Shown here piece by piece: positions 18,970 through 34,299 of a stretch of 64,000 nucleotides of DNA; positions within the stretch are counted from its first letter, which is position 1, and the number at the start of each line of letters is the position of its first letter. Origin of the DNA: Streptantibioticus silvisoli. GTDB lineage: Bacteria; Actinomycetota; Actinomycetes; Streptomycetales; Streptomycetaceae. Under the pieces are notes generated by a model. It searched no databases. It was not told where the DNA came from and was given only the letters and a program-made list of their open reading frames with translations. The DNA is taken from NCBI RefSeq assembly GCF_027947535.2, contig NZ_JAAGKO020000044.1:1-64000 (forward strand). The letters are read 5' to 3'. The translations under genes and the position numbers were made by a program.

Positions 18970-20420
<1,451 letters not shown>

Positions 20421-20745: not shown

Positions 20746-21660
20746 ATGAACGGGTATTCGGGGCTCAGTTCCGAGGAAATTGCACTCCTCCCGACCGACG
20801 AGGATGTACGGAACTGGTCCGAGCGCGGTTGGTATCTGTCGGGGAAGTTGCTGACCGACGAAGAGGCCGACGCGATGACCGAGGCCAGTAAGCGCTTCTA
20901 CGCAGGTCAGGAGGATCGCCCCCTGGCCATGAATCCGCCGCGGCTCGACGACTGGAAGCCGAGCCACGGCGAGATCCAGCGCAAGACGGACTATATCCAC
21001 TACCGGGACAAGACCTTCGCGGAAATTCTCCGCAAACCCATCATCGGAGCGGTGGCGGCCCGGCTCGCACAGGCGTCGAGGATCTCGGTTTTCCAGACCA
21101 CGATGGTTTACAAGCCACCGGTCGCGGAAGAGACGTCGAATATCGTCTCGTGGCACTTCGATAAGTATTACTGGCCGACGTCGACCTCGGAGAACATGCT
21201 GACGGCGTTCATTCCGTTCCACGACTGCACCGAGGAGTTCGGTACCGTCACCATGGTCAGCGGAAGCCACCGGTGGAACTCGCGGCACGGCACGGTGCGC
21301 CCGCCGATCACCGAAGGGGACCGCAGGCGCGAGTACGTGCTGGAGGAGGACGCCGCGCGCAACGGGGTGGCCGTCCCGGAGAAGGCCGTGATCAACATCC
21401 CCAAGGGCCACATGTCCTTCCACCACTGCCTGCTCTACCACGGCAGCGGACCGAACGTCAGCGGGGTGCCGCGCCGCGCGGTGACGCTGCACATGCAGGA
21501 CGAGACCAACGGCTACCGCGACTGGCGGCAGTCCGACGGCCTCCAGCAGGACTACAAGCACGACTACCTCGTGCGCCGGACGCCCGAGGGGCTGCCGGAC
21601 TACACCGACCCGGAGTTCTTCCCGCAGATCTGGCCGGTTCCCGGCGACTCCGCCTCGTAG
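20746..21660 (+). CDS. Fe(II)/2-oxoglutarate-dependent oxygenase, phytanoyl-CoA dioxygenase (PhyH) family
   Basis: 304 residues from ATG 20746 (AGGAAGGA upstream). The facial triad is visible: H137 and D139 in SWHFDKYYW, and distal H232 in LLYHGSGPN, with R244 placed to bind 2-oxoglutarate. GTVTMVSGSHRWNS is the typical PhyH strand. Family members hydroxylate, desaturate or cyclise small molecules, often in natural-product clusters. It lies tail-to-tail with the minus-strand operon and shares a terminator with it, but has its own promoter region with lower GC than the neighbours. I infer it oxidises an intermediate of the adjacent pathway. The frame upstream of 20746 lacks start signals and domain similarity. 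Confidence 0.88.
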   Translation: MNGYSGLSSEEIALLPTDEDVRNWSERGWYLSGKLLTDEEADAMTEASKRFYAGQEDRPLAMNPPRLDDWKPSHGEIQRKTDYIHYRDKTFAEILRKPIIGAVAARLAQASRISVFQTTMVYKPPVAEETSNIVSWHFDKYYWPTSTSENMLTAFIPFHDCTEEFGTVTMVSGSHRWNSRHGTVRPPITEGDRRREYVLEEDAARNGVAVPEKAVINIPKGHMSFHHCLLYHGSGPNVSGVPRRAVTLHMQDETNGYRDWRQSDGLQQDYKHDYLVRRTPEGLPDYTDPEFFPQIWPVPGDSAS

Positions 21661-21669
21661 GCCGCGGGA

Positions 21670-21704
21670 CGTCCCGGCCGCCGCGTGGGCGGGCGGCCGG
21701 GACG
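21670..21704. terminator. Bidirectional hairpin terminator
   Basis: A perfect 13-bp stem (21670-21682 with 21692-21704) with a 9-nt loop lies 10 nt after the oxygenase stop and 6 nt beyond the stop of the convergent acyltransferase gene. It closes the accessory operon on one side and the oxygenase gene on the other. Confidence 0.75.
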
Positions 21705-21709
21705 CGCGG

Positions 21710-22903
21710 TCAGGCCGGCAGCCAGCTGTCGGCGTCGATGCCGCCGACGACGAAGCCGGCGTGCTCGTCCACGAAGGCCGCCGTGCGGGAGCGGTTGTAC
21801 TCGCGCACCGCGTCGGCGTCGGCGTCCAGCGGCCGGTCCACACCGACGAAGACGCTGTAGAGCGGGTTGGGCTGCGCGCCACGGACCATCTTGGCCTCGA
21901 ACGTGCCCAGGCCCAGGTGGATGGCGCGCACGTCGCGGCCCACGCCGGCCGCGATCGGGTGGTAGAAGACCAGGTTGAAGTAGTCGGCGAGGTTGGGCGC
22001 GGAGTAGTCGAAGCCGGCGACCCGGCCGTAGAGCATGTCGCCCTGGCGGTAGCGCAGCGCGAAGCCGACCGCCTTGCCGTCGTCCTCGCTGATCAGCACG
22101 GTGCTGGAGTCGCCGAGGAAGCGGCCCTGCCGGTCGTAGACGCTGGTGACGCGCTCCTCGTCGAACGCGGTGTGCCCGTGCTTGAGCATCAGCGCGCTGT
22201 TGAGCGGGGCGATCTCCTTGACCACCTGCGGCAGCGGCGACTCGCGCACCGTGCGGCCGCTGGCCAGGAAGCGGCGCAGCTCGCGGCGGGCCCGCGGGCG
22301 GCGGCCGGACGGCAGCCAGGCCACGTACTCGTCGAAGTCGTTCCACAGGCCGATCGGCACCACGGTCTCCACGTCGTGGAAGAGCAGCACCGCGCCGTCG
22401 CCGGCGTGCGCCCGCGCCACCTCCTGCGCCTCCTCCAGCGGCAGGTAGTAGTAGGCCAGCACGCTCGCGTCCGCCGCGTCCGCCAGCCGCATCGCCTGCG
22501 CGGTGAGGTCGCCGACGGCTGCCGCGCGCTGTTCGGCGGGGACCCCGGGGCGGCCGGGCACCTGGCCGCGGAACTCCGACCAGCCGGCGGCGATGGACAG
22601 CGGGCTGGCCGCCAGGTGGGCGAGCCGCTCCGCGCCGATGACGCCTTCCAGCAGGTCGGCGGGGGTGAACAGGCCGTGCGGGGGGCGCAGGAAGGTGTAG
22701 CTCTCCATACCGGCGACCACCTCGCCGGCGGCGTCCCGGGCCAGCAGGTAGCGGCAGCGCGCCCCCGGGGGGAGTTCCTCCTCGCGGACGCCCGCGAAAC
22801 CACTGGAGGAGTAGATGGTGGAACCGACGGTCAGGGCGTCCCAGTCGGCGGTGGGCAACTCGGCGAACGAGTCGTGGATGAAGACGGGCACGGGTAACTC
22901 CAT
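21710..22903 (-). CDS. GNAT/FemAB-like N-acyltransferase (peptidogalycan biosynthesis-type, COG3146-like)
   Basis: 397 residues. The layout suggests a double-GNAT protein: an N-terminal region with STIYSSSGFAGVREEELPPGARCRYLLARD and a C-terminal GNAT core (VGFALRYRQGDMLYGRV, LHLGLGTFEAK-MVRGA). Proteins of this type are annotated as predicted N-acyltransferases; relatives in antibiotic pathways are proposed to transfer aminoacyl groups, some from aminoacyl-tRNA. The donor cannot be told here. ATG at 22903; last gene of the six-gene operon, 43 nt after the kinase gene. I infer it attaches an acyl or aminoacyl group to the pathway product. Confidence 0.75.
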   Translation of the reverse strand: MELPVPVFIHDSFAELPTADWDALTVGSTIYSSSGFAGVREEELPPGARCRYLLARDAAGEVVAGMESYTFLRPPHGLFTPADLLEGVIGAERLAHLAASPLSIAAGWSEFRGQVPGRPGVPAEQRAAAVGDLTAQAMRLADAADASVLAYYYLPLEEAQEVARAHAGDGAVLLFHDVETVVPIGLWNDFDEYVAWLPSGRRPRARRELRRFLASGRTVRESPLPQVVKEIAPLNSALMLKHGHTAFDEERVTSVYDRQGRFLGDSSTVLISEDDGKAVGFALRYRQGDMLYGRVAGFDYSAPNLADYFNLVFYHPIAAGVGRDVRAIHLGLGTFEAKMVRGAQPNPLYSVFVGVDRPLDADADAVREYNRSRTAAFVDEHAGFVVGGIDADSWLPA

Positions 22904-22946
22904 GGCGGTCAAGAGGATGTAGCCGGCGGACACGTCCCGTGCGGGG

Positions 22947-23474
22947 TCAGTGTCCGCCGAAGCCGGCCGACGACAGCGCGTCGCCGCCCCGGACGTGGAC
23001 CAGTCGGACGCCGGCGTCGCGCAGCCGGTCGAACAGTTCGGCGTCCGCCTGTCGTTGGGAACGGTGCACCTGGAGGGCGTACCAGAGGATGGAGTGCGGC
23101 CCCACCACGGTCCAGAAGGTCTCGCGGGTGCCGCCCCACAGCGGTTCGCGGCGTATCCAGCGGCGCACGGTGCGCCGCAGCAGCCGCGACCACGACACCG
23201 CCAGCGGCGGGTCGACCCACACCACGCAGTCGGCCCGGTCGACGAAGCCCTCGACGGCCGCCGGGTACTGGCCGTCGACCACCCACCGGTCACCGGCGAG
23301 CAGTTCGGCGAGCCGGTCGGTGAACTCCTGCGGCTTGAGCGGCACGCCGCCCGGACCCCAGTAGACGGCGTCCAGTTGCACCTGCGGCGCGCCGGTGCGG
23401 GCGGCCAGCGCGCCGGCCAGGGTGGACTTCCCGGAACCGGGGGTGCCCACGACCCAGACGCGGGACGGCGCCAT
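22947..23474 (-). CDS. P-loop kinase, adenylate-kinase-like (FlaR/topology-modulation type)
   Basis: 175 residues. Walker A GTPGSGKS at residues 10-17; DAVYWGPGG and WVVDGQYPA match the small adenylate-kinase-like proteins often annotated as DNA topology modulation protein FlaR. Related proteins phosphorylate small substrates; here the context suggests a nucleoside or nucleotide. The ATG at 23474 overlaps the upstream TGA by one base (TGATG). The first possible start, a GTG 3 nt earlier, cannot be excluded. Confidence 0.8.
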   Translation of the reverse strand: MAPSRVWVVGTPGSGKSTLAGALAARTGAPQVQLDAVYWGPGGVPLKPQEFTDRLAELLAGDRWVVDGQYPAAVEGFVDRADCVVWVDPPLAVSWSRLLRRTVRRWIRREPLWGGTRETFWTVVGPHSILWYALQVHRSQRQADAELFDRLRDAGVRLVHVRGGDALSSAGFGGH

Positions 23475-24343
23475 CACACCGTTCCCACCGGGCACTTCGG
23501 GGTCGCTGGACACAGATGTTCCTCCAGCCATCGGGCCACTCCGTCGTCGTCGTGATGCGGCGCCACATCGTCGGCCACCGCGAGCACCTGGGGGGACGCG
23601 TTGGCCACGGCCACCCCGCGGCCCGCCGCGGTCAGCATGCCGAGGTCGTTGAGCCCGTCGCCGAACGCCAGGACCGACGTCCAGGGCGTGCCGGTGCGGT
23701 CCAGCAGCCACCGCACGGCCGAGACCTTGTCGGCGCCGGGCGCGGAGAACTCCAGCAGGCCCGGGGCGGACGAGGTCGCCACCACCGCGTGCCGGACGCC
23801 GAGCAGCGCCGCTGACCCGTCGTCACCTCCATGCACCATCAGACAGACGATACTCCGGCCGTCCGGCAGCTCGGTGACCGTCCGGGCATGGCCCGGACGG
23901 TCGGCGAGCACATCCGGCCAGCCCGGCCCGAGCAGCCGGTCGTGCTCGCGGTCGACCGCCCACACCGCGGCGGGGCCCAGATCCGCCACGACCGCGCGCA
24001 CGGTGGCCGGCGCCATCGGCCGCACCCGCTGGACGCGGCCGGTGTCGAGGTCGCCGATCACCGCGCCGTTGGACGACACCAGCAGCGCCCCGGTGCCGAC
24101 CGCGCCGGCCAGTACCGTTCGGGCTGACCAGGCGGGACGCGCGGTGGCGAAGACCAGCTGGACGCCGTGCGCGGCCACGTCGCGCAGCGCGGCCACCGAC
24201 CGCTCGCTCAGCTGCCCGTCGGTGCCCAGCAGCGTGCCGTCCAGGTCGCTCACCACGACCGCCGGGCGGCCGCCCGGCCACGGGCGGCGGCAGCCGCCCG
24301 GGCCGGGGCAGCCGCCCGGCGGCACCGGCTCCGCAGTGGTCAC
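23474..24343 (-). CDS. HAD-superfamily hydrolase, Cof/sugar-phosphatase type
   Basis: 289 residues. Motif I DLDGT with nucleophile D33 and acid D35, motif II VSSNG, and motif IV FGDGLNDLGML place it among Cof-type HAD phosphatases with a C2 cap, which dephosphorylate sugar phosphates and nucleotides. The first ~28 residues are Pro/Gly-rich. The GTG at 24343 overlaps the methyltransferase stop by 4 nt (GTGA). In a nucleoside pathway it could remove the 5'-phosphate of an intermediate; that is inference. Confidence 0.87.
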   Translation of the reverse strand: MTTAEPVPPGGCPGPGGCRRPWPGGRPAVVVSDLDGTLLGTDGQLSERSVAALRDVAAHGVQLVFATARPAWSARTVLAGAVGTGALLVSSNGAVIGDLDTGRVQRVRPMAPATVRAVVADLGPAAVWAVDREHDRLLGPGWPDVLADRPGHARTVTELPDGRSIVCLMVHGGDDGSAALLGVRHAVVATSSAPGLLEFSAPGADKVSAVRWLLDRTGTPWTSVLAFGDGLNDLGMLTAAGRGVAVANASPQVLAVADDVAPHHDDDGVARWLEEHLCPATPKCPVGTV

Positions 24344-25047
24344 GTCGCGGGGGTCGGCAGCGGCTTGCGGTGCACGATGGCCGCCGCATAACGGTGGTAG
24401 TGCCACTCCTCGTACCCCAGGTGGCTCTCGCCGTAGATGCCCAGGTCGGCGTTCTCGAACAGCTCCCAGCCCGGCCGGGTCAGGATCTTGCCCATCTCCG
24501 GGGTCTCCGGGTAGTAACCGCACTCGCGCTCTTCGTCGTTGAGGCCGATGAGGTAGTCGGCGAAGAAGATGCCGCGCGGCGCCACCATGTCCATCGCATG
24601 GGTCATCAGCGACTCCAGCGGGTGGACCCGGTTCGGCGGCTGCGACCACAGGCCGCTGCCCATGACCAGCTGGAAGTCGCCGTCGGCCGGCAGGGTCATG
24701 TAGTCGCTCTTCACGACCGTGCAGCGGTCCTCGAAGCCCTCCGAGGCCAGCCGGTCGTACAGGCCGACGATCTCGTGGTGGCCGTCGATGAGGTCGATCT
24801 CGCCGCCGTGCAGGAACAGCTCGTCGGTCTCGACCGCCACCACCTCCCAGCCGGCCCGCAGCAGCGGCAGGGCGAACTTGCCGTCGGAGGCGCCGATGAC
24901 GCAGGCCCGGGGCCGGACGCGCCGGGCGTACTCGCCCAGCGGGATGTAGCGGGCGAGCGCGGGGAAGTACGTGAAGTACTCACCCCAGTAGCTCTTGCGG
25001 TCGACGTCGAGCACTTCGCCTCCCGGCTGCGGGATCTGGATGGTCAT
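24340..25047 (-). CDS. SAM-dependent methyltransferase (class I, small-molecule)
   Basis: 235 residues. A Rossmann SAM site CVIGASDGKFALPLLRAG followed by VVAVETDE is clear, with the remaining sequence (SYWGEYFTYFPALARYIPLGEYARRV at the start) unlike the common families I know. The ATG at 25047 is chosen because GGAG lies 7 nt upstream; the GTG two codons earlier overlaps the radical SAM stop. It sits between the radical SAM gene and the HAD gene with essentially no spacing. The acceptor is unknown; O- or N-methylation of the nucleoside is one possibility. Confidence 0.82.
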   Translation of the reverse strand: MTIQIPQPGGEVLDVDRKSYWGEYFTYFPALARYIPLGEYARRVRPRACVIGASDGKFALPLLRAGWEVVAVETDELFLHGGEIDLIDGHHEIVGLYDRLASEGFEDRCTVVKSDYMTLPADGDFQLVMGSGLWSQPPNRVHPLESLMTHAMDMVAPRGIFFADYLIGLNDEERECGYYPETPEMGKILTRPGWELFENADLGIYGESHLGYEEWHYHRYAAAIVHRKPLPTPAT

Positions 25048-25049
25048 GG

Positions 25050-26900
25050 TCACGCTCCGGCTTCCGTCAGGGATTCGGCGGCACTGTTGCGCACGCTGCC
25101 CCACCTCTTGGCAGCGGCCTCATGGATGTACCAGATGTCGTCCTCCGTGAGGAGCTTGGAGATGACCTCCGGGTACGCCTCCTCGAAGTAGGTGAAAGGA
25201 GGCCGGTTGTCCTTGCGGGAGTGGTAGTCCAGCCGGTCCTGCCCGTGCTGGGCGGTGATGGCGGTACCGGGGTGGTAGGTGAGGATGTTGGGGCTGGCCA
25301 TGATCAGCAGCTTGTCGTCGATCAGGCGGCCGATCTCCTCGATCGTCTCCTGGATCGTCTCGCGGTTCTCACCGTCCAGGCCGAACAGCACCGAGCTGCC
25401 GACCCGGATGCCGTGGCTGCGGATGGTGTCCAGGGCCTCGCGGACCTTGCTGACCCAGGTCTCGGGGTTGCGGCGCAGCAGGTTCTTGCCGACGTGCGCC
25501 ATCACCCGCTGCGCCATGCTCTCGATACCGATGTAGATGTAACTGCACCCGGCCCGCGCCATCCGGTCCAGGCCCTCGGCGACCTCGTCGGACTTGGCCC
25601 GGTTCAGCACCACGTCGACGGTCAGCTGCGCGCCCCACTCGAACGGCCGCTCGTCGCCGCGTGCGGCCCGCAGCGCCTCGAAGTCGCGGCAGAAGTTGTT
25701 GATCGCCCGCCAGTTGCCGCCCCAGAAGACCGGGTCGTCGAAGAAGGCGGCCTCGGCCCCCCAGTCCATCATCTGGCCCAGCCGCTCCGCCGCGTGCTCG
25801 GTCTCGGTGACCGCGAAGCGGGTGGGCCGCTGGGAGACCTGGATGCTCTCCGAGCAGAAGGTGCACTTGAACGGGCAGGCGTCCAGGGTGAGCATGTGCG
25901 CGGTGCGGCTGCCCAGCGCCGAACTGTCGGCGCGGGTGAAGATGCCGAACCGGGCCCGCACGGAGAACGCCTCGTAGGGCGAGGGCAGTTCGGCCGACGA
26001 CAGCCGGCGTCCCTGGACGGGGACGGCGGTGTAGCCGTCGGGCAGGATGCCGACGACGGTGAACGCCCCCGTCAGGTCCGGCTGCGCGCCGGCCACCAGC
26101 GGCAGGGCGTCCAGGACGGCGGCGGTGTCGACGCACTCCTCGGCTTCCGCCGGCAGGACGAGGGAGACCGCCTGGAGCAGCAGGTCCAGGCCGGGGGCGC
26201 CGTCGCCGGCGACCACGAAGTCGATCACCCGCTCGGACCGGCCGTCGCCGATGACGGCGACGGTGCTGCTCCACGACAGGTCGAGGGTGTGCGAGGCGCG
26301 CTGGTAGCGGACGGTCTCGTCCGCGTGCCGGCCGCCGATCACCACCACACACCCGGGCGAGTGGGTCTTGGCCAGGGCGGCCATCTCCAGCGCGTAGCGG
26401 TGCCCGGCGGAGACCGCGCTGAGCAGGACCACCCGGGGCCGCAGCGCGATCAGTTCGGCGACGAACTGCTCGCGGGCCGGATCGTCCCAGACCCGGGGGT
26501 CGAAGACGTGCCCGTCGGTCGTCGGGTTGTCGGCGATCAGCGTGGTCCGGTAGCCGTGTTCGGCACGCCGGTAGTCGTCGTCGGGGTAGTGCCCCCAGTC
26601 CGGGAGCACGTCGTCGAGCGACGGCTCCCGGGCCAGCAGGGCGTCCGGTGCGGTGGCGGACCGCTGGATGGTGAGGGTCAGTGCCGCGTACAGGCACATC
26701 GGGTCGCCGGGGTAGGCGACCTCACCACCGCGGCTGGTCGCCACCGGCACCAGGGCCGCCATGACCGGGAAACGGTGCGCCGCTCCGCCCGGTACGAAGC
26801 CGAACCGCCGGCGCCGGCCGGACAGGCGGCGGTCCAGCTCGCCGGTGTCCGGGGGGCACGGTTCCAGGAGAGCGCGGATCGTGTTGCTCACTGTGCTCAC
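25050..26900 (-). CDS. Radical SAM protein with probable N-terminal cobalamin-binding-like domain
   Basis: 616 residues. The [4Fe-4S] cluster motif CPFKCTFC (C342, C346, C349) lies in a radical SAM core running to about 560 (IYIGIESMAQRVM, GSSVLFGLDGE). Upstream, roughly 115-245, is a Rossmann-like region (VVLLSAVSAGHRYALEMAALAK, VVVIGGRHADE) in the position and style of B12-binding domains of radical SAM enzymes such as methylases and OxsB-type proteins. The classical DxHxxG cobalamin-ligand motif is not seen, so B12 would be bound without that His, or not at all. GTG at 26900, with a second GTG at 26891; spacing does not decide. It is the second gene of the operon, 15 nt after the thymidylate-synthase-like gene. 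Likely methylation or rearrangement at an unactivated carbon. Confidence 0.85.
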   Translation of the reverse strand: MSTVSNTIRALLEPCPPDTGELDRRLSGRRRRFGFVPGGAAHRFPVMAALVPVATSRGGEVAYPGDPMCLYAALTLTIQRSATAPDALLAREPSLDDVLPDWGHYPDDDYRRAEHGYRTTLIADNPTTDGHVFDPRVWDDPAREQFVAELIALRPRVVLLSAVSAGHRYALEMAALAKTHSPGCVVVIGGRHADETVRYQRASHTLDLSWSSTVAVIGDGRSERVIDFVVAGDGAPGLDLLLQAVSLVLPAEAEECVDTAAVLDALPLVAGAQPDLTGAFTVVGILPDGYTAVPVQGRRLSSAELPSPYEAFSVRARFGIFTRADSSALGSRTAHMLTLDACPFKCTFCSESIQVSQRPTRFAVTETEHAAERLGQMMDWGAEAAFFDDPVFWGGNWRAINNFCRDFEALRAARGDERPFEWGAQLTVDVVLNRAKSDEVAEGLDRMARAGCSYIYIGIESMAQRVMAHVGKNLLRRNPETWVSKVREALDTIRSHGIRVGSSVLFGLDGENRETIQETIEEIGRLIDDKLLIMASPNILTYHPGTAITAQHGQDRLDYHSRKDNRPPFTYFEEAYPEVISKLLTEDDIWYIHEAAAKRWGSVRNSAAESLTEAGA

Positions 26901-26915
26901 CGTCCCTCGGGTGCG

Positions 26916-27908
26916 TCAGATCGCGGCGATCAGGTCTGCCACGGCACCCCTGGCGGCTGGACTGGTCACGAGCGAGGTGGTGTCGCCGAGCTTGCGGTAG
27001 GCGTGGGTGGCCAGGCACGCGCGGGCCACGTCGGCGAACTCGGTGTTCGCCTTGTGGGCGGCGATCTCGTCGACGACGGCGGTGTCGCCCGCCTCGGCCG
27101 CCTGACGCAGCCGCAGTTCGAAGTCGATGAGCTCGCGTGCCACCTCGCGTCCGCCGTCCGCCGTGGCGGGGAAGGCCGGCAGGACGGCCTCGGTCGCCGG
27201 CGAATCGACGATCTTGCGGGCGAGCGGTACCTCGTTGTCGTAGAAGTGGAAGGTGCCGGCCTGGTGGATGTACGGGCCGGCCGGGACGCCGAGGAGCGAG
27301 GCGGCGAACTGGTGCATCCCCATGAAGAGGAAGGCGTCGTACGGCAGCACGGTCAGCGCCTGCTGGGCCCGCATGACGGTGAGCCAGGTCAGGGCGCCGT
27401 CGCGCAGGAACAGGTGGACGCCCACCGCGCAGGGGTACTCGCGGGACTGGCGGAAGTTGTCCTGCGGCTCCAGCACCAGGGCGAACGCCCGGCGGTGCGC
27501 CGGGTCGCGCTCGATGCGGCCGACGACCTCCTCCAGCTGGTTGCCGTTGGCGGTGATCAGCCGGTGGCCGAAGGCGCCGCTGAGGGTGTGCTGGTCGTCG
27601 GAGTACTCGTGGGCGCCGCGGCGGTAGTAGGCCGGGGTGCCGACGTCGTTGCGGCCGTCGAGGGACCAGGCCAGCAGCCCGAAGCAGTACGACAGGTTGA
27701 GCGGCAGGTCCGGGGTGACCGCGAGGGAGGACGTCGGGTCCTCGATCCGGGTCTGGTAGCCGATCAGCTCCCGGTACGGCCGGTCGCCCTGACCGAACCC
27801 CGAAGCCTTGGACAGCGGATCCCGCACGGACGGTACGTCATGACCCTCTTCGAGGACCTCACGTAAGCCGCCGACGTAGGACTCCGCGAACGATCGATAG
27901 CTGGACAT
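26916..27908 (-). CDS. Thymidylate synthase-like nucleotide C5-hydroxymethylase/methylase
   Basis: 330 residues. The fold is shown by REYPCAVGVHLFLRDG (catalytic Cys160), VMRAQQ (phosphate-binding Arg180) and the HQAGTFHFY segment (His221, Tyr223), which align with Cys146, Arg166, His207 and Tyr209 of E. coli ThyA. At the position of ThyA Asn177, which selects uracil, this protein has Asp191 (LPYD). Asp at this site is what T4 dCMP hydroxymethylase has, so the substrate is probably a cytosine nucleotide. Family relatives MilA and BcmA make 5-hydroxymethyl-CMP for mildiomycin and bacimethrin. ATG at 27908 with AAAGG 5 nt upstream. First gene of the operon and so probably the first pathway step. 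It is not a housekeeping ThyA. Confidence 0.85.
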   Translation of the reverse strand: MSSYRSFAESYVGGLREVLEEGHDVPSVRDPLSKASGFGQGDRPYRELIGYQTRIEDPTSSLAVTPDLPLNLSYCFGLLAWSLDGRNDVGTPAYYRRGAHEYSDDQHTLSGAFGHRLITANGNQLEEVVGRIERDPAHRRAFALVLEPQDNFRQSREYPCAVGVHLFLRDGALTWLTVMRAQQALTVLPYDAFLFMGMHQFAASLLGVPAGPYIHQAGTFHFYDNEVPLARKIVDSPATEAVLPAFPATADGGREVARELIDFELRLRQAAEAGDTAVVDEIAAHKANTEFADVARACLATHAYRKLGDTTSLVTSPAARGAVADLIAAI

Positions 27909-28739: not shown

Positions 28740-30026
28740 TCAGCGGCGGGCGAGTTCGGGTCGGGGGGCCTGCTGGACGGCGCGGCCGTCCTCGGCGGCG
28801 GTGAGCAGCGGGCGCAGCGACAGCGCCAGCAGCGAGGCGACCAGGGAGCCGGCGACGACCAGCACGACCCAGACCGTGCCGCGGTCCAGCTCCAGCAGCG
28901 GGCCGGCGGTGACCGGGCCGATGACCCCGCTCATGCCGAAGACCATGGAGCTGACGGAGTTGTACCGGCCGCGCAGCGCGTCGCTGGCCAGCGCGTTGGT
29001 GACCGCCGGCATGACGGGCGACAGCAAGGTCTCGCCGAAGCCGAAGACCGCGGCGCAGGTGACCACGCCCAGCACCGGCAGGACGCCGCCCCCGGCGTGG
29101 CCGCCGGCGCCGAGCGCGAGCCAGGCGACGGCGAAGAGCCCGCCGACCGCGGCCAGCACCGCCGACCGGCTGCGGTGCTCCAGCAGCCGGACCATGAGCA
29201 GTTGGGAGACCACGATGACCACGGTGTTGCCGGCCAGCGCCCAGGCGACGATCCGGGGCGTGACGTGGGTGAACTGGACCGCGTAGGCGGTGAAGCCGAC
29301 CTGGATCTGGGCGTAGCCGCAGGTGGCCAGGACCAGGCCGAACAGGATCAGCCGGCGGAACGGGCGGTCGCGCAGCACGGCCAGGTAGCCGACCGGCGAG
29401 CGGCCGGCGCGCGGTGCGGCGGAGGCGGCGGACGGGCCGGGCGTGGTGCGGCCGACCCCGCGCAGCATGAGCAGGATCACCAGGGGTGCGAAGAAGCTGA
29501 GCCCGTCGAGCAGGTAGATGGCCTGGAACGTCACCGGGCGGTGGACGTCGATGACCGCGCCCGACATCAGGCCGCCCAGTCCCATGCCGAGGTTGAGCAG
29601 GGTGAACTGGAGCCCGAAGACCCGCTGCCGCTCCCCCGGAGCGGTCAGCGAGGCCAGCAGCACCGACTGGCCGGCCCAGATCGCCGAACTGCCGATCGCG
29701 ATCACCGTCATCACCAGCAGGACGGTCCACAGCGACCCCACGAACGCCAGCCCCGCGGTGCCCACCCCCTCGATCGCCAGGCACGGCAGCAGGACCCGCC
29801 GCACCCCGATCCGGTCGATGAGCGACCCGCCGACCGGCGACAGCACCAGGCTGCCCACGCCGTACAGCCCGATCGCCAGCCCGGCGAGCGTGCCGGACAG
29901 GCCGCGGACCTCGGTCAGGTAGATGAACAGGAACGGCAGCGTGAGCCCGCGGCCCAGGGCCGACAGGGCGGCTCCGACAAGGATCCACCGTGCCTCCGGT
30001 CGGCGCGGCAGAACGGGATGCGACAT
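28740..30026 (-). CDS. MFS transporter
   Basis: 428 residues with about 12 hydrophobic helices and a central cytoplasmic Pro/Ser/Ala loop (around residue 200). The loop 2-3 motif GGSLIDRIGVRRVL is the MFS motif A (DRxGRR-like). It resembles MdtH/MdtG-type drug exporters. ATG 30026 with AGGAG 7 nt upstream. It is near the accessory operon in the same direction but separated by over 800 nt of repeat-rich DNA, so a role as exporter for that pathway is possible but not shown. Confidence 0.85.
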   Translation of the reverse strand: MSHPVLPRRPEARWILVGAALSALGRGLTLPFLFIYLTEVRGLSGTLAGLAIGLYGVGSLVLSPVGGSLIDRIGVRRVLLPCLAIEGVGTAGLAFVGSLWTVLLVMTVIAIGSSAIWAGQSVLLASLTAPGERQRVFGLQFTLLNLGMGLGGLMSGAVIDVHRPVTFQAIYLLDGLSFFAPLVILLMLRGVGRTTPGPSAASAAPRAGRSPVGYLAVLRDRPFRRLILFGLVLATCGYAQIQVGFTAYAVQFTHVTPRIVAWALAGNTVVIVVSQLLMVRLLEHRSRSAVLAAVGGLFAVAWLALGAGGHAGGGVLPVLGVVTCAAVFGFGETLLSPVMPAVTNALASDALRGRYNSVSSMVFGMSGVIGPVTAGPLLELDRGTVWVVLVVAGSLVASLLALSLRPLLTAAEDGRAVQQAPRPELARR

Positions 30027-30908
30027 GGTGGTTCTCCTGCTGATCCTCGGTGGTTCGGTGGACGTGGCCGCCACGGCCGGAGCGGTCACGGGCGGGCAGG
30101 GCGGTGAGGGCCGGCGGTGCGGTGCCCGGCGGCCGGGCCCGCGGCGGACCGCCGCCGGGCACCGGACGGGGCCATACGGGCGGCGTCCACCGCACAACGG
30201 ACATGTCCCTCGGCATACCGGGCCGTGCGTCCGGCGGCGTGCCGGCCGGCCGCGGCGGCCCGGGGCCCCCGCACCCGGCACGGTCGCGGCCCGCCGCGTG
30301 TGCGCGGTGCCCGTCCGGTTCCTGCGTGCAGTCCCATCCGCGTTCCCTCGCCCTCGGCGCCCCCGGTCGGGGCGCCGGCTGCCTTCGAGCGTAGGCGCTG
30401 CCGGTCGGGGGCCGGCGGAGCGAACGGGCGGCCCACGGGGGCGTGGCGGGCACGATCGGGCCTCAACTCGCCCCGAGGACAGGGACGTTGAGGCGGCGCG
30501 ATGTGTCGCGACCGGGGTGACGCCGGGTCAGGTGGCTGCGGCGCGCCGGGACTGACCGCAGGGGCCGACGGCCGGGGCCGACCGTGGCGAACGGCCCCCG
30601 CGTCGGGGAACGGTTCGCGGGGGCCGCAGCCGGGCGCCGGTGCAGGGGCCGAACGGGTGCACGGCAGCCCCGCCGGGCGCGGTTACCGAACGGGTTCACG
30701 GCAGCCCCGCCGGGCGCGGTTGCCGAACGGGTTCACGGAAGCCGCCGGAAGCCCCCGCCGGGTACCGGTGCCTCCACCGGGCGCCGTCGAGCCTCACCGG
30801 TGCCACCGGGCACCGTTACCGCCGCCGAACGCGCCGCGGAAGCCGCCGAAGCCCCGCACGGCACCGGTGCCGCCGCCCGGCGCGGTCGGCGCGGGGCGGC
30901 GGCGGCCG
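30027..30908. other. Gene-free GC-rich region with tandem repeats
   Basis: 882 bases with no supportable gene. 30027-30500 holds only GC-rich sequence in which I see no clear promoter for the MFS gene. 30600-30900 is made of degenerate GCCGAACGGGTTCACGG and CACCGGTGCC-like repeats, lying downstream of the methionine-salvage operon. Confidence 0.5.
30649..30740. repeat. 37-bp tandem repeat
   Basis: Units starting CCGAACGGGT at 30649, 30686 and 30723 give an exact 37-bp period; the first two copies are nearly identical, the third is partial and diverges. A more degraded copy lies upstream around 30607. Not CRISPR: units are contiguous with no unique spacers. Confidence 0.8.
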
Positions 30909-31676
30909 TCAGGCGGGGAAGGCCTCGGTGGCGGGGTCGGCGGTACGGTCGCCGGCGGCGGCCGGGGCGGGGGAAGCGCTCAGGTCGAGGCCCTCGAAGG
31001 TGGAGATCGTCCGGTGGCCTTCGATGTCGGCGCCGCGCGGGTCGTCGGGCCGGCGCACGCCCAGCGTCCGCCATCCCGCCGCCGCCGCCGCGTCCAGTTC
31101 CCCGGCCACGTCGCTGAGGAAGACGGTGGCCCGCGCCGGCACCGCCAGGGCCGCGGTGATCGCCCGGTAGGAGTCCGGCTCCCGCTTGGGGCCGGCGTTC
31201 TCCAGGTCGAAGTGGCCGTGCAGCAGCCCCGACAGGTCGCCGAGGTCGCTGTGCCGGAACCAGTCGCGCTGCGCGGCGGCCGAACCGGAGGAGTACACGT
31301 GCGCGGTCACGCCCGCCGCCCGCCAGCGGCGCAGCGCCGGCGGCACGTCCGGGTAGACGTGGCCGTGCAGCACGCCCTCGCGGTAGCCGCCGGCCCAGAT
31401 GCCGCCCTGTACGGCCTTCAGCGGTGCCGCCTTCGTGTCGGTGTCCGCCCACCCCTCCAGCGCCGCGACGGCGCCCGCCTCGTCCAGGGCCGGCTCACCG
31501 GTCTCGGCCCGCACCGCGTCCAGCAGCTCGGCGTGCTCCGGGCTGCCGCGCAGCGCCGCGACCCAGCCGGCGATGCGGGGCCGGGCGTACGGGAACAGCA
31601 CGTCCTGGACGTGGGTGAGCGAACCGGTGGTGCCCTCGATGTCGAGCACCACCGCCGTCACGCCGCCGTGGGTCAC
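30909..31676 (-). CDS. mtnC: Acireductone synthase (enolase-phosphatase E1)
   Basis: 255 residues. HAD-family bifunctional enzyme that enolises and dephosphorylates 2,3-diketo-5-methylthiopentyl-1-phosphate. The HAD nucleophile motif is the E1 variant LDIEGTTGS (D12, E14), with VYSSGS (motif II) and VFLSDVAGELDAA (motif IV). The GTG at 31676 overlaps the mtnD stop by 4 nt. Last gene of the salvage operon; length is normal. Confidence 0.94.
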   Translation of the reverse strand: MTHGGVTAVVLDIEGTTGSLTHVQDVLFPYARPRIAGWVAALRGSPEHAELLDAVRAETGEPALDEAGAVAALEGWADTDTKAAPLKAVQGGIWAGGYREGVLHGHVYPDVPPALRRWRAAGVTAHVYSSGSAAAQRDWFRHSDLGDLSGLLHGHFDLENAGPKREPDSYRAITAALAVPARATVFLSDVAGELDAAAAAGWRTLGVRRPDDPRGADIEGHRTISTFEGLDLSASPAPAAAGDRTADPATEAFPA

Positions 31677-32251
31677 GAACCCTCCGCCAGCAGGGCGTCC
31701 AACCGCGGGTAGTCCGCGCCCAGCTGGTCGCCGGTGAAGTCGCCGACCCAGCCGTCCTCGTCGCGGAAGAAGCGGATGGCGCAGAAGTCGGGGCGCGGTC
31801 CCATGTCGAACCAGTGCCGGGTGCCGGCCGGCACCGACAGCAGGTCGCCGGCCTCGCACACCACCGCGTACACCCGGCCGTCCAGGTGCAGGTAGAAGCA
31901 GCCGGTGCCGGCGGCGAAGTAGCGCACCTCGTCCTCGGCGTGCCGGTGCTCGTCGAGGAACGCCTTACGGGCCGTGGCGGCCTTCTCCCGCCACGCCTCG
32001 TCGTCGGCCGGGGTCAGCTGGGCCACGTCGACCACCCGCAGGTCCTCCGCGGCGCACAGCGCGTCGACCTCGGCCCGGTACAGCGCCAGCACGTCCTCCT
32101 GGCGGCGCTCGGCACCCAGCCCGTCGCGCACCGGCCAGTGCCGCAGGGACACGCCGCGCTCGGCGAGCTCCTTGGTGATCGTGTCGTCGTCGCGGGTGCG
32201 CAGCAGCACCGTGCGCGGCGCGTTGTCGGGCATTACCTGAAGCAGCGTCAT
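31673..32251 (-). CDS. mtnD: Acireductone dioxygenase
   Basis: 192 residues. Cupin enzyme giving the keto acid precursor of methionine plus formate with Fe(II) (or an off-pathway CO route with Ni). Metal ligands are visible: H102, H104 and E108 in EHRHAEDE, and H146 in GTRHWFD. ATG at 32251 overlaps the stop of the mtnA-mtnB gene by 4 nt. The longer open frame upstream is out-of-phase mtnAB sequence. Confidence 0.95.
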   Translation of the reverse strand: MTLLQVMPDNAPRTVLLRTRDDDTITKELAERGVSLRHWPVRDGLGAERRQEDVLALYRAEVDALCAAEDLRVVDVAQLTPADDEAWREKAATARKAFLDEHRHAEDEVRYFAAGTGCFYLHLDGRVYAVVCEAGDLLSVPAGTRHWFDMGPRPDFCAIRFFRDEDGWVGDFTGDQLGADYPRLDALLAEGS

Positions 32252-34065
32252 GACGCGTCGGTCCTCTCGTCCCGCCCGGCGGTGGGGTCCGCCACGGGCC
32301 ACACCGGGCGGGCGCCGAGCAACAGCAGTTGGCAGATGGATTCCAGGCATTCGAGGTGGTTGCGGGCCTGGGCCAGGTCGGCGCCCCAGGCGGTGACGCC
32401 GTGGTCCGCGATGAGCAGTCCCGGCGGCCCGTCCGGGTGGCCGGCCACGTACGCGGCCACCTCGTCGGCGATGTCGGCGACGCGGGCGTGGTTGGCGAAG
32501 ACCGGCAGCGCGGTGGCCGACGGATCGGCGAGCCGCAGCCCCTTGAGCAGTTCGAAGCCGGACAGCGGCAGGACCGCGGTCCGGGGGCCGCCCGTGCGGC
32601 AGGCTACCGCTGTCGCGTGCGGCGCGTGGACGTGGATGACCGCGCCGGCGTCCGTCGCCCGGTAGACGGCGGCGTGGATCGAGGTCTCCGCCGAGGCCCG
32701 CGGGCCGTCCGGGTCGACCGGGACGCCGGTGCGCGCGTCCACCTCCACCACGTCGTTCTCGGTCAGGTCGCCCTTGTCGCGCCCGCTCGCGGTGATCAGC
32801 GCCCGGTCGCCGCTCGTGCGCACCGACAGGTTGCCCGAGGTGCCCGGCATCCAGCCGCGGGTGTACATCTCCCGGGTGAACGCGGCCAGTTGGCGTGCCG
32901 CGTCCCGGCCGGCCGCGGGGGCGTCGCGGCGCGGGTCGAAGACGCGGTCCTCCGTGACGACGGCGGTGATCAGCTCGCCGGGGGTCACGTCGAAGGCCGG
33001 GTTGAACGCCCGGGCGTCGAGCGGTCCGACCGCGGTGCCACCGAAGCCGATCACCTCGGCGGCCGGGCGCTCCTCCACCTCGATCGCCTCGCCGCCGGCC
33101 GTCCGGGGGTCCCAGCTGGACTCGGGTGCCACGACCACGAACGGCACGCCGTGCCGCGCGGCGGCCACCGCCAGCCCGTAGGTGCCGATCTTGTTGGCGG
33201 TGTCGCCGTTGGCCGCTATCCGGTCGGCGCCGACGAGCACCACGTCGACCATGCCGCGCGCCATCGCGGCCGCCCCGGCGGAGTCCACGCACAGCCGGTA
33301 GGGCACGTCGGCCTGGTCCAGCTCCCAGGCGGTCAGCCGCGCCCCCTGAAGCAGCGGCCGGCTCTCGCCGACCAGGACCTCGGCGACGAGGTGCCGGGCG
33401 TGCAGTTCCAGGATCGCGCCGAGCGCGGTGCCCACGGCGGCGGTGGCCAGCCGGCCGGTGTTGCAGTGCGTCAGCACCCGCAGCGGGCGGCGCGGCACGA
33501 GGTCGCACACCAGGTCCGCCGCGCGCCGGGCCGCCCGCAGGTTCGTCGCCCGGTCCTCCGCCAGCATCGCGGTCGCCTCGGCCAGCACCGCCTCCGGTCC
33601 GCCCTCCAGCGCGGTCAGCACCCGGCGGACCGCCCAGGCCAGGTTGACGGCGGTGGGCCGCGCGGTGGCCAGCTTCTCCGCGTCCGCACGCACCAGCGGC
33701 TCGTCGCACGACCCGTCGGCACGCCGGTGCCGGTGGGCGGATATCGCCACGCCCAGTGCCCCGGCCAGCCCGATCGCCGGCGCCCCCCGGATCGCCAGGG
33801 TGCGGATCGCGCCGATCACCTCGTCGACGCTCTCCAGCCGCAACAGCTCGACCTTGTGCGGCAGTTGACGCTGATCGACGACGACCAGCGCGCCGTCGTC
33901 CCAGACGAGGGAGGATTCGGCGTCCGGGCCGGCCACCCGCGCGGGGGCGGTCACCGGCCGCTCCGGTCGCCGCGATCCGCCACCGGCGCGCCGCAGGCGC
34001 CCCGGCAGGTCCCGCTCGTACCGCGCCGGCGCCGTAGTGGCATGGTTCGCGTCATCGGACCTCAT
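32248..34065 (-). CDS. mtnAB: Bifunctional methylthioribose-1-phosphate isomerase / methylthioribulose-1-phosphate dehydratase
   Basis: 605 residues. Residues ~50-380 are MtnA (IRGAPAIG, catalytic Cys201 in THCNTG, Asp281 in GADRIAANGD, NKIGTYGLA). Residues ~385-600 are MtnB, a class II aldolase-fold zinc dehydratase (GTSGNLSVR, ETSIHAAVYR, VIHVHAPHAT). Two consecutive salvage steps are therefore joined in one chain. The ATG at 34065 gives a ~45-residue Arg/Ala-rich tail before MtnA and its ribosome-binding site (AGGAG, 1 nt away) is too close, so a later start cannot be excluded. First gene of mtnAB-mtnD-mtnC. MTA phosphorylase or MTR kinase is not in the window. Confidence 0.93.
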   Translation of the reverse strand: MRSDDANHATTAPARYERDLPGRLRRAGGGSRRPERPVTAPARVAGPDAESSLVWDDGALVVVDQRQLPHKVELLRLESVDEVIGAIRTLAIRGAPAIGLAGALGVAISAHRHRRADGSCDEPLVRADAEKLATARPTAVNLAWAVRRVLTALEGGPEAVLAEATAMLAEDRATNLRAARRAADLVCDLVPRRPLRVLTHCNTGRLATAAVGTALGAILELHARHLVAEVLVGESRPLLQGARLTAWELDQADVPYRLCVDSAGAAAMARGMVDVVLVGADRIAANGDTANKIGTYGLAVAAARHGVPFVVVAPESSWDPRTAGGEAIEVEERPAAEVIGFGGTAVGPLDARAFNPAFDVTPGELITAVVTEDRVFDPRRDAPAAGRDAARQLAAFTREMYTRGWMPGTSGNLSVRTSGDRALITASGRDKGDLTENDVVEVDARTGVPVDPDGPRASAETSIHAAVYRATDAGAVIHVHAPHATAVACRTGGPRTAVLPLSGFELLKGLRLADPSATALPVFANHARVADIADEVAAYVAGHPDGPPGLLIADHGVTAWGADLAQARNHLECLESICQLLLLGARPVWPVADPTAGRDERTDAS

Positions 34066-34299
34066 GCTCCTAGGAAGTGGTGAGGCGTTCGAATCGTCAA
34101 CGGGGGCCGGCCTGGGCGGTGGTGGGAGGGGTTCGGGGACGCGGGGCGGTGTCCGCCCGGCGCCGCGGGCCGACCGCGTGGCAACGGTATGTGAGCTACC
34201 CGGACCGCCCCTCACCCATTCCGTGACCCACGTCACGCGGACGGGGACGGCGTCGGCGCGTGACGCCGCGGCGGCGGGGGAACGCCCCGGCCGCACGCC

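Follow-up and report, generated by a model that had tools for sequence, protein, structure and literature searches.

A conserved actinobacterial gene cluster containing a divergent thymidylate synthase-like protein and putatively directed at a cytidine nucleotide-derived product

The closest structurally characterized relative of the protein considered here is MilA, the cytidine monophosphate (CMP) 5-hydroxymethylase of mildiomycin (PDB 5b6d, 5jnh), a member of the thymidylate synthase (TS) family. According to PMC6400193, the equivalent of Glu58 activates methylene-tetrahydrofolate, the Y96F variant of T4 dCMP hydroxymethylase forms no product, and Asp169 of Escherichia coli TS binds the pterin; PMC5175136 describes MilA Glu68 as catalytically important, and the equivalent of MilA Ala176 is said to admit ribose (PMC5175136/PMC6400193). 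Here, we analyzed a 64,000-nucleotide stretch of the Streptantibioticus silvisoli genome (8.7 Mb in 130 contigs; contig NZ_JAAGKO020000044.1, positions 1 to 64,000), hereafter the window, in which positions 20746-27908 carry six closely packed genes on the minus strand and a convergent gene on the plus strand. The first of the six (26916..27908) encodes a 330-amino-acid TS-like relative of MilA. Judging from the sequences, we consider it somewhat more probable than its competitors taken together that the region forms the core of a cluster, conserved in actinobacteria, for an exported and probably aminoacylated (peptidyl) compound, which would be built on a cytidine nucleotide and opened by non-standard chemistry on CMP.

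The TS-like protein matched PF00303 with 40.0 bits (cut-off, 24.3), and MilA was its best solved relative (E = 1e-26; 30.8% identity over 227 aligned residues), in agreement with a preliminary description of the window that had proposed a TS-fold enzyme. Like MilA, it has the catalytic cysteine (Cys160, equivalent to residue 146 of E. coli TS and 155 of MilA), the cytosine Asp (Asp191, MilA 186), which stands where uracil-type enzymes have Asn, the ribose Ala (Ala181, MilA Ala176) and the sugar His and Tyr (His221 and Tyr223); Arg139, Arg140 and Arg180 are kept as well. Unlike MilA, however, it lacks the catalytic Glu and Tyr, the folate Asp and a Gly, which are replaced by Leu78 (E. coli TS Glu58, T4 Glu60, MilA Glu68), Phe113 (Tyr94/Tyr96), Gln183 (E. 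coli TS Asp169) and Val187 (Gly173), respectively. Lys133 of MilA, which together with Ala176 forms its ribose-preference pair, is replaced by Arg139. The alignment around the Glu position is anchored by a conserved Trp three residues farther on, and Arg21 and Trp83 (E. coli TS numbering) were left out because two alignments disagreed on them.

All four replacements were found in 21 of 21 members of this type (18 of 18, plus three more from a separate alignment); the Cys nucleophile was invariant in all of them, as were the phosphate-site and base-site residues. By contrast, 24 of 25 further MilA-like proteins of the family retained all four residues, the exception being that of locus L008; these 25 were the best-scoring ones among the matched places. 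In a tree of 53 sequences (supports read from the unrooted tree; the proteins of L044, L050 and L073 were not included, and their residues were checked separately), 18 members formed a single clade, separate from MilA, with a bootstrap support of 100 and a long branch leading to it (0.88 substitutions per site). This clade was joined by the L008 protein (support 99) and by a protein of mycobacteriophage Candle (94), both of which also lack the Glu and the Asp. Because the four residues concerned with folate and catalysis are replaced in every member, the ordinary, methylene-tetrahydrofolate-dependent C5-hydroxymethylation proposed in the preliminary description appears doubtful.

Several other TS-like genes came to our attention. 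Among 758 phage records matching the TS-like protein, residues were examined in those of Candle, phage G and T4 (gp42). Candle gene 74 (L079), annotated as 'thymidylate synthase', has Arg for the catalytic Glu and Asn for the folate Asp, and its annotated function may be wrong. The TS-like genes of Sinorhizobium and Pantoea, which adjoin TIR-domain and phage genes and keep the Glu and the Asp, were judged to represent a different use of the fold. The window genome itself carries a second, canonical MilA-like gene on contig C44 (L037, 9374-10345), with all four residues, including the Glu and the Asp, in place; the C44 cluster also encodes a FlaR-like kinase that shares 37% identity with its window counterpart and, judged by eye, a carbamoyltransferase-like protein.

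All seven reading frames of the region are open, as previously described. The TS-like gene is followed on the minus strand by genes for a B12-binding/radical S-adenosylmethionine (SAM) protein (25050..26900; GTG start at 26900 or 26891), a class I SAM-dependent methyltransferase-fold protein (24340..25053; start at GTG 25053 or ATG 25047), a HAD (Cof-type) phosphatase (23474..24343), a P-loop kinase-like protein of the FlaR/topology-modulation type (22947..23477) and a FemAB-like/GNAT acyl- or aminoacyltransferase (FemAB1; 21710..22903, start at 22903). A gene for a PhyH-type Fe(II)/2-oxoglutarate oxygenase (20746..21660, plus strand) is convergent with this operon. Given GTG starts, four-base GTGA overlaps join the radical SAM and methyltransferase genes (25053-25050), the methyltransferase and HAD genes (24343-24340) and the HAD and kinase-like genes (23477-23474), bearing out the overlapping ends reported earlier, and these three pairs may therefore be co-translated.

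The HAD protein matched PF08282 (140.6 bits) and has the DLDGT and GDGLND motifs, and the oxygenase matched PF05721 (71.6 bits), with the HFD motif present as WHFD in the window and in 12 of 12 relatives examined. The methyltransferase-fold protein had no Pfam match; its predicted model (pLDDT 79) resembles ordinary class I SAM methyltransferases, a fold that is silent on the group transferred and on the acceptor. FemAB1 matched FemAB_like PF04339 (57.5 bits) by profile only, with no solved protein matched by sequence at E ≤ 5. We take FemXAB-type aminoacyltransferases such as PacB, from the pathways of peptidyl nucleosides and streptothricin-like compounds, to be its nearest described counterparts, the shared trait being a FemAB-like profile match in a nucleoside-like cluster. 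The protein formerly called adenylate-kinase-like is a P-loop protein (GTPGSGKS motif); it had no Pfam family above cut-off and came closest to the 'DNA topology modulation' (FlaR-type) NCBIfam family (63.9 bits; cut-off, 215).

To examine the conservation of the gene set, the TS-like protein was searched in 297 genomes of the family, giving matches at E ≤ 1e-15 in 48, the window genome included, of which four were close relatives (67-83% identity). Among named genomes, a scan located 18 loci, three of which (L042, L053 and L047) lie on the same contigs as those of genomes G013, G034 and G219. The radical SAM gene directly follows the TS-like gene in 14 of the 18 loci (in pieces in L040 and L050); it is absent from L051, L052 and L056, and the contig ends in L044. 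Two of the 14 operon contigs (L039 and L047) end after the methyltransferase gene. At the 12 uncut loci, the methyltransferase, kinase-like, FemAB1 and PhyH genes were always found, and the HAD gene was found at all except that of S. cacaoi. The oxygenase gene is convergent in 10 of the 12, co-directional in L042 and upstream in the Saccharopolyspora locus L048. The order thus recurs in Streptomyces, Streptantibioticus and Saccharopolyspora, and therefore beyond chance, with S. griseofuscus, S. alanosinicus, S. cacaoi and S. diastatochromogenes among the named carriers; most of the set is also present on a plasmid of Streptomyces sp. NBC_01591 (L073). With the other window proteins as queries, no match at E ≤ 1e-3 was obtained in 25 other MilA-like loci (flanks of about 1.5 kb) or in L036, L038, L051, L052 and L056; the sole match of these queries was that of the kinase in the C44 locus.

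The TS-like clade also occurs in other contexts. At three loci, L036 (genome G228), L051 (S. griseofuscus) and L052 (S. natalensis), a TS-like gene of the same type (65-67% identity) stands beside a homologue of BlsM/MilB, which are hydrolases of CMP/hydroxymethyl-CMP (E = 1e-40 in L036, with homologues of that protein in L051 and L052), and the TS-like proteins of these loci group with that of the Saccharopolyspora operon (support 87). The L036 neighborhood further encodes a radical SAM protein that, within NCBIfam, scores best against BlsE (78.6 bits, under the cut-off of 400), an Asp/Asn hydroxylase and a DegT aminotransferase, and homologues of the L036 neighbors are present in L051 and L052. 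These sister clusters thus share BlsM/MilB-like genes, and in L036 a BlsE-like gene, with the mildiomycin and blasticidin S systems. By contrast, a search with the L036 protein for BlsM/MilB-type hydrolases gave no hit at E ≤ 1 in the window, in the plasmid locus L073, in a second locus of the window genome on contig C24 (see below) or in the operon loci as fetched, consistent with the earlier remark that a CMP N-glycosidase gene is missing; the window operon and the operon loci encode a B12-radical SAM protein and FemAB-like proteins instead. The presence of a BlsM/MilB relative beside the sister TS-like genes favors CMP as what the clade acts on, and suggests that two fates are open to the modified nucleotide, the base being released in the sister clusters and the ribose being kept in the window operon. 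A third context is provided by S. hokutonensis (L056), where a TS-like gene without the Glu (56% identity) is followed by genes for an adenosine monophosphate-forming ligase and two ATP-binding cassette exporter proteins (named by eye).

These comparisons bear on what the TS-like enzyme might do. It would bind CMP, and Cys160 would add to C6, making C5 nucleophilic. Since the residues of the methylene-tetrahydrofolate machinery are replaced, the enzyme might then install a C5 group, or carry out another reaction at C5/C6, without normal folate activation. A bolder version, which we consider less probable than not, is that it founds a folate-independent branch of the TS superfamily, in which C5 of CMP would be joined to formaldehyde or a larger aldehyde in an aldol-like manner; the resulting new C5-alkylated cytidine nucleotide would open a new peptidyl nucleoside pathway with a dedicated exporter and a vitamin-type importer. 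A little less credible, in our estimation, is that the enzyme is an ordinary methylene-tetrahydrofolate-dependent CMP 5-hydroxymethylase and that the remaining proteins elaborate 5-hydroxymethyl-CMP with its ribose kept. Its relationship to MilA, with the cytosine Asp and the ribose Ala in place, would agree with this, as would Glu157, an acid at the position of T4 Asp145 (MilA Asp152), the C-terminal Ile seen in five aligned proteins (Leu in L048) and the BlsM/MilB relatives of the sister clusters; however, the changes at Glu58/Glu68, Tyr94/Tyr96, Asp169 and Gly173 affect the very residues to which PMC6400193 and PMC5175136 assign roles. It is unlikely that the TS-like protein is instead a non-catalytic or regulatory CMP binder, or acts on a later intermediate, for example by removing a C5 substituent: the four replacements and the long branch to the clade would agree with this, but the invariant Cys, the equally invariant phosphate and base residues, and the position of the gene immediately ahead of the radical SAM gene at 14 loci speak against it.

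The radical SAM protein matched PF04055 (56.7 bits) and has a CxxxCxxC motif (CPFKCTFC), and its B12-binding domain scored 31.3 bits, just under the cut-off of 32.1, so that the possible B12 domain noted earlier stands as such. Its best NCBIfam match is TIGR04434 (127 bits), far under the cut-off of 550. Its predicted model is poor (pLDDT 58) and gives a hint only; the top fold matches were OxsB, AprD4 and TokK. In a class sample of 394 genomes (three candidates scored per genome listed), a homologue at E ≤ 1e-15 was found in the window genome only, and in a family sample of 394, seven further genomes contained relatives with 47-51% identity, in eight copies (L094-L101). Within the 14-20 kb around these copies, tblastn with the window proteins matched the radical SAM gene alone, and NRPS (nonribosomal peptide synthetase)-like genes were present at all eight and an aminotransferase-like gene at six (named by eye), a setting that distinguishes the enzyme from the TIGR04434/OxsB class, with which it shares the radical SAM motif and a weak B12-binding domain. 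Because these relatives stand beside NRPS-like genes, the substrate of the enzyme may be an amino-acid part instead of the nucleotide, so that the nucleotide would be only one possible target of the methylation formerly ascribed to it. Matches on rhizobial plasmids (24-27% identity) were set aside; in the one record examined, the match adjoins nif genes and the annotation includes no TS-like gene.

The cluster is not confined to the seven genes originally delimited. An energy-coupling factor (ECF)-type S component gene stands beside the TS-like gene in 13 of the 14 operon loci (only a piece of it matched in L053; none in L042), and the T component and both ATPase genes are present in 12 of the 14. 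A second FemAB-like gene (FemAB2) was found in nine of 12 operon loci, a gene for a second type of major facilitator superfamily (MFS) protein in nine and an ATP-grasp ligase gene in five; the S. malaysiense cluster (L054) combines ECF, FemAB2, MFS and ATP-grasp genes. The window itself lacks the ECF, FemAB2, second-type MFS and ATP-grasp genes. On contig C24 of the same genome, however, genes for FemAB2 (72% identity), MFS (76%), ATP-grasp (65%), EcfS (85%), EcfT (74%) and the two EcfA proteins (82% and 83%) form one row on the same strand. Therefore, the pathway set is split over two loci in the window genome, with the core in the window and the remainder on C24; the full set comprises about fourteen genes, common to many soil actinobacteria. 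EcfS of the cluster type was found at E ≤ 1e-30 in only two of 150 family genomes, both of them operon carriers (the window genome and G034), a co-occurrence with a Fisher p of 0.0003 given the three known carriers in this sample. Only the window genome among the 150 had the ATP-grasp protein at E ≤ 1e-60, together with a paralogue of 40% identity on contig C1. EcfS matched NF045596 (CD3073; 91 of 180 bits), a name of which no mention was found in the open-access literature searched, and weakly folate-S (E = 0.019), and its substrate could not be read from these matches. Beside the operon of Streptantibioticus rubrisoli (L053, 8632-9588), the genes for the S and T components of the ECF transporter look shortened or broken, and the importer may be decaying there while the core operon persists.

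The sequences show directly which genes are present, how far they are conserved and which residues the TS-like protein has; from these we infer the following roles in a pathway opened by non-standard CMP chemistry. Besides the TS-like step, the class I methyltransferase-fold protein and the B12-radical SAM enzyme would alkylate, the latter on the nucleotide or the amino-acid part; the HAD enzyme would take off the phosphate; the FemAB-like proteins, with the ATP-grasp ligase where present, would attach amino acids; and the 2-oxoglutarate oxygenase would oxidize. The MFS proteins would export the product, and the ECF transporter would import a precursor, a cofactor or the product. Of the new nucleoside made from CMP that the preliminary description proposed, the sequences support one conserved gene set whose first enzyme is related to MilA and has both the cytosine Asp and the ribose Ala, but not ordinary folate hydroxymethylation as the opening step.

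A number of observations weigh against this proposal. The loss of the Glu, Tyr, Asp and Gly could also fit a non-catalytic nucleotide binder or hydroxymethylation with substitute residues, the acid retained at Glu157 being one such point, and Arg139 is a deoxyribose-type residue. The radical SAM relatives point to NRPS-type chemistry, and FemAB-like and FlaR-like proteins can have many roles. G013, the third known carrier in the 150-genome sample, has no EcfS; a close FemAB2 is absent from G013 and from the S. cacaoi and Saccharopolyspora carriers; and at E ≤ 1e-10 neither the kinase-like nor the PhyH protein was matched on the L073 plasmid. Finally, the matched stretches lack the HAD DLDGT motif in three of 12 relatives (L042, L049 and L053), Walker A in two of 12 (L048 and L050) and CxxxCxxC in one of 13 (L050), although some of these stretches may begin past the motif or be fragmented.

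On the upstream side, the operon is flanked by a gene for an MFS exporter-like protein (28740..30179, minus strand), with homologues of 61-68% identity near the operon in L042 and L055, and on the other side by an argC-like gene (19337-20365, named by eye). Methionine-salvage genes lie just upstream of the operon in the window (30909-34299, minus strand): mtnC (about 30909-31700; TIGR01691, 206 bits), mtnD (31673-32269) and a frame with mtnA- and mtnB-like parts (32251-34299), the last two named by eye from their translations. Differently arranged mtn genes with 42-48% identity occur in S. alanosinicus (L043, 3244-6324). As a neighbor chosen post hoc, they are possible accessory genes of the cluster, consistent with a release of methylthioadenosine.

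We regard as very improbable an amino acid-based metallophore or signal, with a minor nucleotide step, for which the methyltransferase-fold protein would transfer an aminocarboxypropyl group from SAM with release of methylthioadenosine, the MFS proteins would export and the ECF transporter would re-import: the frequent ECF importer, the nearby MFS genes, EntS among the matches of the second-type MFS protein (89 of 324 bits) and the salvage genes beside two differently arranged loci would suit it, but the methyltransferase model is like those of ordinary methyltransferases, mtnC is above cut-off in only five of 14 operon genomes (within 6 kb of the operon in two) against a base rate of 20 in 200, and no metal-binding group is readable from the sequence.

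Judged from titles and the beginnings of abstracts, no description of this gene set was recognized among the open-access papers listed. If the proposal of a cytidine nucleotide-based, exported compound is right, it would add an apparently unassigned nucleoside-type pathway with named carriers, and a natural TS relative that keeps substrate activation yet lacks some residues that textbooks assign to the folate machinery. Since the TS mechanism is a textbook drug-target case, such an exception would be of interest to enzymologists as well as to natural-product chemists.

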